Below, piece by piece: positions 34,823 to 37,826 of a stretch of DNA of 64,000 nt. Each line of letters opens with the position of its first letter. Position 1 is the stretch's first letter. Under the pieces are notes generated by a model, which was given only the letters and a program-made list of their open reading frames with translations, was not told the origin of the DNA and made no database searches. The translations under genes and the position numbers were made by a program. Origin of the DNA: Nocardioides marmoribigeumensis (lineage in GTDB: Bacteria; Actinomycetota; Actinomycetes; Propionibacteriales; Nocardioidaceae); NCBI RefSeq assembly GCF_031458325.1, contig NZ_JAVDYG010000001.1, forward strand, positions 3,968,001 to 4,032,000. The letters run 5' to 3'.

Positions 34823-35964
34823 TGAGGTCGGAGGTCCTCGGCGCCGAGCGGGTCGTGGTCAAGGTCGGCTCGTCGTCGCTGGCCTCCGCCGACGGGGGCA
34901 TCGACCAGGCCCGCGTGGCCGCGATCGTGGACGACCTGGCCGCCGCACGCGCGAGGGGCGCCGAGGTGGTGCTCGTCTCGTCCGGTGCGATCGCGGCCGG
35001 GCTCACCCCGCTCGGGCTCAAGCGCCGCCCACGCGACCTCGCCACCCAGCAGGCCGCGGCCTCCGTCGGGCAGGGCCTGCTGATGCACCGCTACACCGAG
35101 GAGTTCGCGCGCCACCGGCTCACCGTCGGCCAGGTGCTGCTCACCGTCGACGACGTCACCCGCCGCAGCCACCACCAGAACGCCTACCGCACGTTCGGCC
35201 GGCTGCGCGAGCTGGGCGTCGTACCCGTCGTCAACGAGAACGACACCGTCGCCACCACCGAGATCCGCTTCGGTGACAACGACCGCCTCGCCGCCCTCGT
35301 GGCCCACCTCGTCCACGCCGACCTCCTGGTCCTGCTCAGCGACGTCGACGGGCTGTACGACGGCCACCCGCGCGAGGCGGGCACCTCCCTGGTCACCGAC
35401 GTGCGCGGGGAGGCCGACCTGGAGGCGGTCCGCATCGGCAGGGCCGGCGCCGCCGGGGTGGGCACGGGCGGCATGCAGACCAAGGTCGAGGCCGCCCGGA
35501 TCGCGACCGGTGCGGGCATCCCGGTCGTGCTGACCTCGGCCGACCAGGCGGGGGAGGCGCTGCGGGGGGAGCAGGTCGGCACGCTGTTCCACCCCACCGG
35601 CCGACGGCGCCCCACGCGGCTGCTGTGGCTGGCCCACGCCACCGAGGGGCGCGGCCAGGTCGTCCTCGACGACGGGGCCGTCCGCGCCGTGACCGAGCGG
35701 CGCGCGTCCCTGCTCCCCGCGGGCATCACCGCGGTCACCGGCACCTTCACCGCCGGCGACCCCGTCGACCTCACCGACCAGGCCGGACGACTCATCGCCC
35801 GCGGACTGGTCAACTACGACGCCGAGGAGCTCCCCGCCCTGGTGGGGCGCTCCACCCGCGAGCTCGCGCGGGAGCTCGGCGCCTCCTACGAGCGGGAGGT
35901 CGTGCACCGCGACGACCTCGTGGTCCTCACCGGGCCCGGCTCGGCCGGGCCAGGTCCCGCCTGA
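34822..35964 (+). CDS. proB: Glutamate 5-kinase
   Basis: A 380-residue enzyme for the first step of proline synthesis. The amino-acid-kinase domain begins AERVVVKVGSSSLASADGG, with LVSSGAIAAGLTPLG, VVPVVNENDTVATTEIRFGDNDRLAALVA (in part) and LLSDVDGLYDGHPR. GVGTGGMQTKVEAARIAT is the closing motif. A C-terminal PUA domain (about 285-370, RRASLLPAGITAVTGTF) completes the bacterial long form. Translation is coupled to obg through TGATG. proA, the next enzyme, lies 609 bp further on with one small gene and a foldback element between. Confidence 0.95.
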   Translation: MRSEVLGAERVVVKVGSSSLASADGGIDQARVAAIVDDLAAARARGAEVVLVSSGAIAAGLTPLGLKRRPRDLATQQAAASVGQGLLMHRYTEEFARHRLTVGQVLLTVDDVTRRSHHQNAYRTFGRLRELGVVPVVNENDTVATTEIRFGDNDRLAALVAHLVHADLLVLLSDVDGLYDGHPREAGTSLVTDVRGEADLEAVRIGRAGAAGVGTGGMQTKVEAARIATGAGIPVVLTSADQAGEALRGEQVGTLFHPTGRRRPTRLLWLAHATEGRGQVVLDDGAVRAVTERRASLLPAGITAVTGTFTAGDPVDLTDQAGRLIARGLVNYDAEELPALVGRSTRELARELGASYEREVVHRDDLVVLTGPGSAGPGPA

Positions 35965-36037
35965 CGGGACTGTGGACGACGAATTCCGTCGTACGCGGAC
36001 GATTTGCGCGGTCTTCCGTCGGTTTCGCTGACGCGTG

Positions 36038-36059
36038 GCCTGCTGAGAAGGCAGGCTTT
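36038..36059 (+). terminator. Weak terminator-like hairpin after proB
   Basis: GCCTGC, 7-nt loop, GCAGGC, then TTT. It lies 35 bp before the next small gene, so it may separate that gene from proB or act in its leader. Confidence 0.4.
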
Positions 36060-36093
36060 GACGCGAGGGCAGCCTGACCGAGGCAAGGGGACG

Positions 36094-36438
36094 ATGAGCA
36101 AGCGCGCACGGCTCTGGCACGTCACCGTGACAGTGGCCGGTGAGGCGATGGAGCCGCTCATGGTGCGGGCTGCGCTGGCGCGGCTCAGCCAGGAGCGGCC
36201 GTTCATCAGCGCCCTGCGGTTCAACTCCGAGCGGGCCGAGATCACCTACTGGGACGAGGCCGAGCTCATCGTCGACGCGGGCTCGCTCGCCCTGCGCCTG
36301 TGGAACGAGCACCGCGACTCCGCCCGCCTGCCCGACTGGGAGGTGATCGGGCTGGAGATCGTCGAGCGCACGCTGCACCTGGACCGGTCGGCGTACGAGA
36401 ACATGGCCGACCTGAGCGTCGTACCCCAGCCGTTCTGA
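36094..36438 (+). CDS. Conserved-looking small protein of unknown function
   Basis: A 114-residue soluble protein beginning SKRARLWHVTVTVAGEAMEPLMVRAALARL. It has an alternating beta-alpha pattern (VTVTVAG, RFNSERAEITYWDEAELIVDAGSLAL, WEVIGLEIVERTLH) that could be an ACT- or ferredoxin-like fold, but I recognise no family. ATG 36094 lies behind CAAGGGGACG. A 90-bp foldback element starts 7 bp after its stop. Confidence 0.7.
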   Translation: MSKRARLWHVTVTVAGEAMEPLMVRAALARLSQERPFISALRFNSERAEITYWDEAELIVDAGSLALRLWNEHRDSARLPDWEVIGLEIVERTLHLDRSAYENMADLSVVPQPF

Positions 36439-36444
36439 GGGGGT

Positions 36445-36534
36445 CGGTTTCACTAGGTACCTAGTGACAGTGACACTTCCCGAGCGAAGTTTCGCTCGGG
36501 AAGCGAGAACATCACTAGGTACCTAGTGAAACCG
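36445..36534. repeat. 90-bp length-symmetric foldback element (MITE/REP-like or operator pair)
   Basis: The element is built as 23-8-28-8-23. Outer arms 36445-36467 and 36512-36534 are perfect 23-bp inverted repeats, and each contains the 18-bp palindrome TCACTAGGTACCTAGTGA. In the middle, CTTCCCGAGCGAA (36476-36488) and TTCGCTCGGGAAG (36491-36503) form a perfect 13-bp stem. The two 8-nt spacers, CAGTGACA and CGAGAACA, are not complementary. The palindromes are 62 bp apart, about six helical turns. There is no coding capacity, no obvious target duplication, and no second copy in this window. It ends 26 bp before the -10 box of proA. Confidence 0.85.
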
Positions 36535-36560
36535 CACCCAGCGCTGCTCGCCGGGCCGCC

Positions 36561-36566
36561 TAGGCT
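36561..36566 (+). promoter_or_regulatory. -10 box TAGGCT of proA
   Basis: TAGGCT with 6 nt to the proA ATG; leaderless spacing. The foldback element lies just upstream of the expected -35 region (near 36538-36543). Confidence 0.5.
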
Positions 36567-36572
36567 TGGGAC

Positions 36573-37826
36573 ATGAGTGACCTCGAGACCCTGGTGCTGG
36601 ACTGCGCCCGACGCGCTCGTACGGCGGCGCACGAGCTGGCGGTGGCGACGCGGGCGAGCAAGGACACGGCGCTCCACGCGATGGCCGACGCGCTGGTCGC
36701 TCACCAGGACGCGATCCTGGCCGCCAACGCCGAGGACGTGCAGCGGGCCCGCGACAACGGCACGCCCGAGTCGCTGGTCGACCGGCTGCGGCTCGACGAG
36801 GGACGGGTCGCGGGCATGGCGCAGGGACTGCGCGACGTCGCGGGCCTGGCCGACCCGGTCGGCGAGGTGCTGCGCGGCTCGACCCTGGCCAACGGGCTCG
36901 AGCTGCGCCAGGTGCGGGCGCCGTTCGGGGTCGTCGGCATCATCTACGAGGCGCGGCCCAACGTCACCGCCGACGCCGCCGGCATCTGCCTCAAGAGCGG
37001 AAACGCTGCGCTGCTGCGGGGCTCGACCAGCGCCCTGGCCTCCAATCGGGCGATCGTCGAGGCCCTGCGCGGGGCCGTCCAGGCCTCGGGCCTGCCCGCC
37101 GACGCGGTGCAGCTGGTGCCGGGGGAGGGCCACGACGCGGCCAAGGTCCTCATGCGGGCCCGGGGGCTCGTCGACGTGCTCGTCCCGCGCGGTGGTGGGG
37201 GGCTGATCCGGTCGGTGGTCGAGGAATCGACCGTCCCCGTGATCGAGACCGGCGTCGGCAACTGCCACGTGTACGTCGACGCCGAGGCCGACCTCGACAT
37301 GGCGCTGGCCATCGTGCTCAACGCCAAGACCCACCGGCCGTCGGTGTGCAACGCCGCGGAGTCGCTGCTCGTGCACGCCGACGTGGCCGAGGAGTTCGTG
37401 CCCCGCGTGGTCGCGGCGCTGCAGGACGCCGGGGTCACCGTGCACGGCGACGAGCGGTTCGCCGCGCAGGAGGGCGTCGAGCCGGCCACCGAGGCCGACT
37501 TCGACACGGAGTACCTCTCCCTCGACATCTCCGCCGCCGTCGTCCCCTCGCTCGAGGACGCGGTCGCCCACATCCGCCGGCACTCCTCGGGACACACCGA
37601 GGCGATCGTGACCCGCTCGCAGGCGGCGGCCCGCCGCTTCGTCGCCGCGGTCGACTCGGCCGCGGTGATGGTCAACGCCAGCACGCGGTTCACCGACGGC
37701 GGCGAGTTCGGGTTCGGGGCGGAGATCGGGATCTCGACCCAGAAGCTGCACGCCCGAGGCCCGATGGGGCTGCCCGAGATGACCTCCTCGAAGTACGTCG
37801 TCACCGGCGACGGGCACGTGCGCTGA
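36573..37826 (+). CDS. proA: Gamma-glutamyl phosphate reductase
   Basis: A 417-residue NADPH-dependent aldehyde-dehydrogenase-family enzyme, second step of proline synthesis. Key segments: [28 protein letters not shown] (in part), [33 protein letters not shown] (in part), the catalytic Cys in [15 protein letters not shown] (about residue 260), and [11 protein letters not shown]. Normal length. Its own leaderless promoter separates it from proB. Confidence 0.95.

Follow-up and report, generated by a model that had tools for sequence, protein, structure and literature searches.

Palindromic P-S Repeats Paired with an AbiEi-Vsr Gene Unit in Nocardioidaceae: A Possible Jumping Repeat of a Type Not Described Before

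The 90-bp foldback element upstream of proA in Nocardioides marmoribigeumensis is probably a non-autonomous dispersed repeat of the REPIN/BIME kind, a reading to which we give a probability of about 0.6. Its full-size relative is a unit of ~1.2 kb, in which two inverted sets of the same palindromic modules bracket a gene (P-S-[AbiEi-Vsr]-S-P). The gene encodes an AbiEi-type winged-helix protein whose C-terminal domain, in its predicted fold, resembles Vsr and homing endonucleases. The element perhaps also functions as a bidirectional transcript end. Taken together, the P-S repeats and the AbiEi-Vsr unit suggest a type of jumping repeat that has not been described before.

Structure of the Foldback Element at the proA Locus

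The window is the 64,000-nucleotide stretch of the N. marmoribigeumensis genome in which the element was noticed. The foldback at 36445-36534 was borne out exactly as the initial annotation described it, and shuffle controls indicate that the layout is not due to chance. Perfect 23-bp inverted repeats occupy 36445-36467 and 36512-36534. Each contains the 18-bp palindrome TCACTAGGTACCTAGTGA (36450-36467 and 36512-36529), and the two palindromes are 62 bp apart from start to start. The center is a perfect 13-bp stem at 36476-36503 with 2 bases between the arms. With up to 3 mismatches allowed, the palindrome has 2 matches in the window and none in 100 shuffles. The predicted fold of a 101-nt strand with the foldback has a free energy of -74.6 kcal/mol (z -13.7), which was equaled by 0 of 200 shuffles.

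The comparison with other copies sets the bounds of the modules. The left copy of the palindrome module P, with the core TCACTAGGTACCTAGTGA, is at 36447..36470, and the right copy, inverted relative to the left, is at 36509..36532. Between them is the 38-bp central palindrome module S (36471..36508), a stem with compensatory changes across copies. The left outer end of the element (36440..36446) is G-rich, and the right outer end is at 36533..36539. When the G000 copies (G000 is the genome of the window) are read side by side, many of them have a GGGTNC-type left end and an ACCC-type right end.

This copy sits between co-directional genes, both on the forward strand. The upstream one is a hypothetical gene (36094..36438, start codon picked by eye), which matches no Pfam family at E ≤ 0.001. 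Its stop at 36438 is 6 bp before the 23-bp repeat and 8 bp before P. The downstream one (36573..37826) starts at 36573, and we take it to be proA from its sequence; the DNA of this region has matches in 38 of 39 genomes. The initial annotation placed a proA promoter just after the element, and a consensus scan of 36000-37000 found no sigma-70-type promoter there. A T-tract terminator scan of the same 1 kb (criterion: 5 T in 8) also returned 0, and Rfam 15 over 35900-37000 gave 14 sub-threshold matches, none of which reached the gathering threshold.

The comparison of empty sites, proposed in the same annotation, showed that nine relatives with the hypothetical gene next to proA lack the element at this site (gap read by eye). 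In a tenth relative (L094 in G014), the two genes are ~1.3 kb apart, and the proA side alone was read by eye. A script searching for P-S pairs found none in all 10 fetched proA-region loci. None of the empty sites is close enough in sequence to reveal the exact ends of the element.

Dispersed Copies and the P-S Architecture

G000 is a single contig of 4.44 Mb. The search of this genome for the 18-bp palindrome, another check proposed at the outset, found 62 copies at up to 2 mismatches and 0 with the reversed-pattern control, so the palindrome is not confined to the proA locus. The 62 palindromes make up 40 elements, 22 of them P-S-P (full) and 18 P-S alone (half). Full and half copies number 12 and 14 in the loci read from G002, and 10 and 15 in those read from N. 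speluncae (presumably G277). P is a 24-bp palindrome and S is a 38-bp palindrome, as judged from the comparison of copies, and their centers are 31 bp apart. Thus, the two modules abut without a linker.

The architecture was counted at 135 P sites, namely the 62 of G000, 38 from G002 (20 loci), and 35 from N. speluncae (23 loci). The 20 loci are part of the G002 total, and the strict pattern counts 41 palindromes in that genome; the 23 loci are those found by an exact pattern. The S axis lies 31 bp from P on one side at 62/62 sites in G000, 38/38 in G002, and 23/35 in N. speluncae, whose S is more imperfect. The threshold in this count was at least 12 of 19 paired positions, which 0.4% of random positions pass. 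At the same threshold, none of the 135 P sites has S on both sides. Half elements, with no second P, account for 47 of the 135 sites. P is nearly invariant within G000, where 52 of the 62 18-mers are identical. The spacing between the two P of full copies is fixed at 62 bp in the three genomes, with one N. speluncae copy at 61.

The inward end of half elements is a partial S-like stretch. A GTAC-containing stretch then follows in 11/18 halves of G000 and 11/14 of G002, versus 15% at random, and in 2/15 of N. speluncae. At the inner ends of the G000 and G002 halves, a GTACGACG-like stretch is seen after S at variable distance.

Sequence Dialects in Nocardioidaceae

One architecture with genome-specific sequence dialects is present in many Nocardioidaceae. 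The exact 16-bp core occurs in only 3 of 294 genomes of the family. In the named collection, from which the window's own genome may be absent, the searched pattern was found in N. speluncae only. In contrast, 146 of 341 Nocardioidaceae genomes have a match at E ≤ 0.001 to a covariance model built from the unit. At the order level and E ≤ 1e-7, the model matches 30 of 245 genomes, one of which (G733) is outside the family. The per-genome counts with this model are lower bounds (at most 12 candidates scored per genome in the family and 18 at the order level). The strict P pattern GTTTCACNNGNNNNCNNGTGAAAC is found in 59 of 341 family genomes, with a control of 0. At the class level, it is found in 6 of 394 genomes, and all six belong to the same family.

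Thirty-three loci were read from these genomes. Most of their cores are palindromic, and the sequences change from one genome to the next. Two axes at a distance of 31 bp were found in 32 of the 33 loci (thresholds 9/12 for P and 12/19 for S; in L207, for example, at 258/289), and in 21 at the stricter threshold of 10/12 for both. The one locus with no such pair is L228. In G010, the two P are separated by 84 bp instead of 62, and one extra 22-bp module accounts for the difference. The palindrome of G031 has the same C-C mismatch in all places listed, giving it a fixed polarity.

An AbiEi-Vsr Gene Bracketed by P-S Modules

One kind of gene, with an AbiEi_4 domain, is flanked by facing half elements in two genomes, at 334 kb in G000 and in the interval from ettA to a thiolase gene in G002. 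Homologs were sought in seven genomes, and all 22 loci obtained were read for P-S modules. Six of them have P-S on both sides at threshold: two in G092 and one each in G000, G002, G277, and G010. Two others have modules on one side and degenerate remains on the opposite side, which are L259 in G277 (10/12 and 11/19) and L262 in G010 (fragments, at a contig end). All eight homologs with modules fall among the 10 best ones. Bracketing modules are absent from the remaining two of these 10, in G001 and at L256 in G092; at the latter, a single pair inside the neighboring gene was taken as chance. They are likewise absent from all 12 weaker homologs. With the thresholds unchanged, a pair was found anywhere in 2 of 56 control loci, some of which overlap. 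Fisher's test of homolog against control loci gives 3e-7, and 1e-5 without the two loci that prompted the idea.

The converse count was made around P-S sites of other genomes. The AbiEi-Vsr gene was found at 5 of 55 such loci (two of which are one G092 unit), while the control count was 1 of 52, namely the G001 copy. A further two units, in G177 and G008, were encountered at P-S sites and carry modules on both flanks. Seven of the eight units measured have 1158-1249 bp between their P axes. The exception is a G092 unit of 1744 bp with a second gene inside; most units have room for a single gene. In each of G092, G010, and G277, two AbiEi-Vsr genes are found that differ in palindrome type. A bracketing variant also occurs as dispersed copies in G000, G002, G092, and G010. 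The main dispersed dialect of N. speluncae, CACTAGGTACCTAGTG, is found at neither of its bracketed genes, and the sole AbiEi-like match at its 23 P loci is weak and partial, covering 65 residues; both observations count against the proposed link.

The initial annotation offered a very small non-autonomous mobile element as one of two readings. The dispersed copies, the empty site in relatives, and the gene-bearing unit of ~1.2 kb with the same ends support this reading well.

Other genes are also seen between facing halves. A methyltransferase gene is in place of AbiEi-Vsr in G002 (L152:1014-1961), and a sigma-factor gene with a weakly DUF6281-like gene in G000 (L051:554-1946). These cases are possibly cargo, or two independent half elements. 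The gap between ettA and the thiolase gene (L063 in G000, L153 in G002, L174 in G001, and L171 in G003) is a variable site. It contains the AbiEi gene in G001 and G002, ~200 bp between half elements with no AbiEi gene in G000, ~55 bp in G003, and other genes in G008 and G010. Close to its end, the AbiEi-like protein of G001 (L273:943-1857, no modules) ceases to follow the family, as a broken reading frame might cause.

The idea that facing halves are the borders of a swapped gene cassette was rejected in its simple form, as the halves point inwards from a stop codon and the G001 gene lies between ettA and the thiolase gene without modules. It was revived in a changed form when homologs elsewhere turned out to be bracketed by their own dialects.

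The Predicted Protein and Its Co-Grouping with Palindromes

All 10 proteins examined match Pfam AbiEi_4 at the N-terminus at E ≤ 1, with the best value at 5.8e-10. The AlphaFold model of the whole protein has a pLDDT of 88. Its best PDB match is the AbiEi antitoxin 6y8q (E 5.5e-6), followed by Rv2827c (2e-4), and against Vsr it gives a probability of 1.00 and an E of 0.016. The C-terminal domain alone was modeled with a pLDDT of 90. The model resembles the catalytic domain of I-Bth0305I (3r3p; TM 0.63/0.73, E 4.5e-3, probability 1.00) and Vsr (1cw0; E 6.3e-3, probability 1.00). I-Bth0305I is an endonuclease of the EDxHD type. All PDB matches of this domain lie above E 0.001, and a Toxoplasma mitoribosome protein ranks first among them.

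The motif EFDGxxKY is invariant in the nine aligned C-terminal domains, and the G008 protein has EADGxxKY. L273, without modules, was left out of alignment A3. The conserved acidic and lysine residues are putative catalytic residues, and with the predicted fold they mark the domain as a putative PD-(D/E)XK/Vsr-like nuclease. At the sequence level, the only match to solved structures is one stray at 0.92. NCBIfam gave one stray match at 0.023 in one member. PADLOC assigned AbiEi models and, weakly, ZorE and mREase models.

Proteins group by palindrome type across genomes. In a tree of 13 proteins, one group (99/97) unites the four proteins of the CCCC...GGGG type, which come from four genomes. 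The CACCGG/CATCGG (100/99), CACAAG-like (99/98), and CACTAG (100/99) types also form groups, and the deeper forks are weak. L246, which is cut by the locus end, entered the second tree as a partial protein. The Mantel correlation between protein and palindrome is 0.43 (p 0.0018), and 0.39 (p 0.011) without G000. Within GTTTC-type palindromes alone (6 rows), p is 0.09.

Placement at the 3' Ends of Genes

Elements are placed preferentially behind genes. Of the 135 P edges in the three genomes, 79 lie at most 25 nt behind the stop of a gene that points towards P, versus 1.8% of random positions and 10.8% of random intergenic positions. Full copies between two stops number 9/22 in G000, 7/12 in G002, and 4/10 in N. 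speluncae (20/44 overall). Genes were called for these counts with our own script based on third-position GC. At four gene 3' ends, an element is common to G000 and G002, with both flanks shared in three of them, so part of the element set is inherited. Some ORFs run into P and have their stop inside it (L048:812, L049:512, and L054:428 in G000, and others, at a distance of -14 or -6). In these cases, the element may have replaced the native gene end.

The S helix varies in a way that is consistent with a hairpin. Across 90 units, 11 of 17 pairs have changed on both sides somewhere, and the number of double-change cells is 160 versus 66.8 in shuffles (0 of 500 as high), which supports, without proving, a hairpin function, as related sequences inflate such tests. 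When the S partner is slid, pairing falls from 90% to 30-45%. T is enriched just after S across copies (2.8-3.4 of 8 versus 1.1 at random).

The same data could be read as those of a host-useful element. The copies would be bidirectional terminators or stabilizers of mRNA 3' ends, kept alike through gene conversion and selection with no dedicated mobilizing enzyme, and the AbiEi-Vsr gene would simply tend to lie between such copies. The position behind stop codons, the full copies between two stops, the covariation of the S stem, and the T enrichment all favor it, as does an apparent ordinary hairpin, seen by eye, in the ettA-thiolase gap of G003. It leaves unexplained, however, why one genome has two dialects, each bracketing its own gene copy, and why the proteins group by palindrome type across genomes. 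The patchy distribution of the dialect (3 of 294 genomes) and the lack of a T-tract terminator in the scanned stretch of the window also speak against it. We regard this explanation as unlikely, though it deserves to be considered ahead of the other alternatives.

Comparison with Known Repeat Systems

Terminal inverted repeats, small size, many copies, and empty sites in relatives would also be expected of an ordinary MITE, left behind by a DDE-type insertion sequence that was lost or escaped detection. However, target-site duplication shows no consistent excess over re-paired flanks (43 of 44 full copies, 19 offsets, 4 lengths). The unit with the spacing of 61 bp (L127:1719) was left out of this analysis and of alignment A1 (90 of 91 units). 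Old copies could have lost their target duplications. The gene between such ends in the units read, in addition, is no DDE transposase by Pfam or by fold; it encodes AbiEi-Vsr. A DDE-type origin is improbable.

The P-S family is similar to REPs and REPINs in that short extragenic palindromes are dispersed in inverted pairs and have genome-specific variants (excerpts of PMC2817692 and PMC3116915). It shares with the REP/RAYT system, as presented in parts of PMC2817692, a gene bracketed by two inverted copies and the co-grouping of proteins with palindromes. It differs from RAYT systems in its gene, which is AbiEi-Vsr-like with no Y1 transposase, and in its host family, Nocardioidaceae. It also differs from REPs in that P-S consists of two different palindromes of fixed length 31 bp apart. 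In the excerpts of PMC2817692, RAYTs are tied to REPs by the bracketed gene, the co-grouping, and matching dispersed copies. Bracketing and co-grouping are found here for AbiEi-Vsr, and matching dispersed copies in G000, G002, G092, and G010; in N. speluncae, such copies are not clearly seen.

A classical REPIN mobilized by a RAYT, a Y1 tyrosine transposase, would fit the inverted palindrome pair, the 3'-end placement, the copy number, and the dialects, and the evidence is of the same kind as in the excerpts of PMC2817692 and PMC3116915. The Y1_Tnp domain (PF01797, E ≤ 0.001), however, was found in 0 of 10 genomes, five of which have the strict P pattern, and the same search was positive in 5 of 14 control genomes. 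A GTRG tag within 8 nt of the 24-mer is present in 7 of 135 units, under the 11% expected at random. Mobilization by a RAYT is thus very improbable. The P-S family works like a REP/REPIN system, yet it does not belong with the RAYT systems.

AbiEi antitoxins are autoregulators. This property, together with the winged-helix protein bracketed by palindromes and the fixed 62-bp spacing in full copies of three genomes (61 in one N. speluncae copy), would suit the second reading of the initial annotation, a two-site operator whose regulator works by DNA looping. The regulator might be AbiEi, with proA and further genes as its targets. The position of 79 of 135 P edges behind stop codons, the 47 of 135 P in half elements, and the 84-bp spacing in G010 leave the operator hardly any probability.

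Several other families are comparable. Like BIMEs, described in parts of PMC2817692, the P-S repeats are a mosaic of palindromic units and other motifs in alternating orientation. The sequences and the partner gene are different. Like CGTC-tagged REPs, they are small palindromes with no known tie to a transposase, often less than 20 bp from convergent 3' ends (excerpts of PMC3733652). Those REPs differ in being 20-40 bp long with a CGTC tag. The same excerpts state that most convergent REPs in two genomes are less than 20 bp from both stops, and the placement here is similar. The CGTC type has no dedicated transposase, and in these excerpts its mobilizer is left open. The retrieved text of PMC3733652 contains no match for "actino" or "Nocardi". 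The Bor, Ype, and Efa families, according to portions of PMC1590033, are repeated stem-loops near gene 3' ends and possible terminators or mRNA stabilizers, as P-S may be. They differ in belonging to other phyla and in having no bracketed nuclease gene in those portions.

Caulobacter CIRs have an inverted-repeat layout. They and other MITEs resemble the P-S elements in being strictly intergenic, as described in parts of PMC10969869. Unlike P-S, CIRs are tied to CcrM methylation sites.

The N-terminal AbiEi_4 domain is shared with the AbiEi antitoxins of type IV toxin-antitoxin systems, in which an AbiEii toxin gene lies nearby, and the C-terminal predicted fold with Vsr and I-Bth0305I. In contrast to both, the two parts are fused here and bracketed by palindromic modules. 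Among the matches listed, all from open-licence papers, there is no report of an association between a palindrome and AbiEi-Vsr. The word pattern ACTAGGTACCTAGT has no match in the open-licence papers searched.

A Possible Mechanism and Its Implications

A mechanism can be proposed for the REPIN/BIME-like repeat and its AbiEi-Vsr unit. The AbiEi part would recognize the dialect-specific palindrome, either as duplex or as extruded hairpin, and the nuclease part would nick at the site or next to it. The module set would then be copied to new places through repair or strand transfer, with 3' ends of genes preferred. P-S-P copies would derive from the unit by interior loss. The S hairpin, flanked by GAAAC...GUUUC, would act as a bidirectional transcript end, and this would explain the persistence of copies behind stop codons.

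In its widest form, the proposal is a class of mobile elements without a known transposase. A fusion of the AbiEi winged helix with a Vsr-like nickase would act on its own bracketing palindromes by a homing-like nick-and-copy process, without target duplications and with 3'-end targeting, and it would shed dialect-specific P-S-P copies that the host uses as bidirectional terminators. We hold this only tentatively, at a little under even odds. If it is true, it would answer, in one lineage, how REP-like repeats spread without a RAYT. Mobile-element enzymes would then be encoded by some of the "orphan" AbiEi/Vsr-type genes that antitoxin and defense models currently match.

This REP-like family, in which no Y1 gene was detected, is associated with a gene from a different enzyme class that is both bracketed and co-grouping, so the question of the mobilizer could be put to the test with a single protein and a single 24-bp site. 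The constant 24/38/31-bp geometry with changing sequence provides matched pairs of protein and site for work on specificity.

Matches in Plasmids and Viral Contigs

A search of plasmids gave one weak match in Collinsella. A link to phages was considered and rejected: six viral contigs with CACTAGGNNCCTAGTGA are without S by pattern, and these matches look like chance. Three viral contigs (L141:8885, L143:2441, and L146:500) share CACTAGGCGCCTAGTG, possibly an attachment site. It adjoins what is presumably, from the motif, the 3' end of a tmRNA gene.
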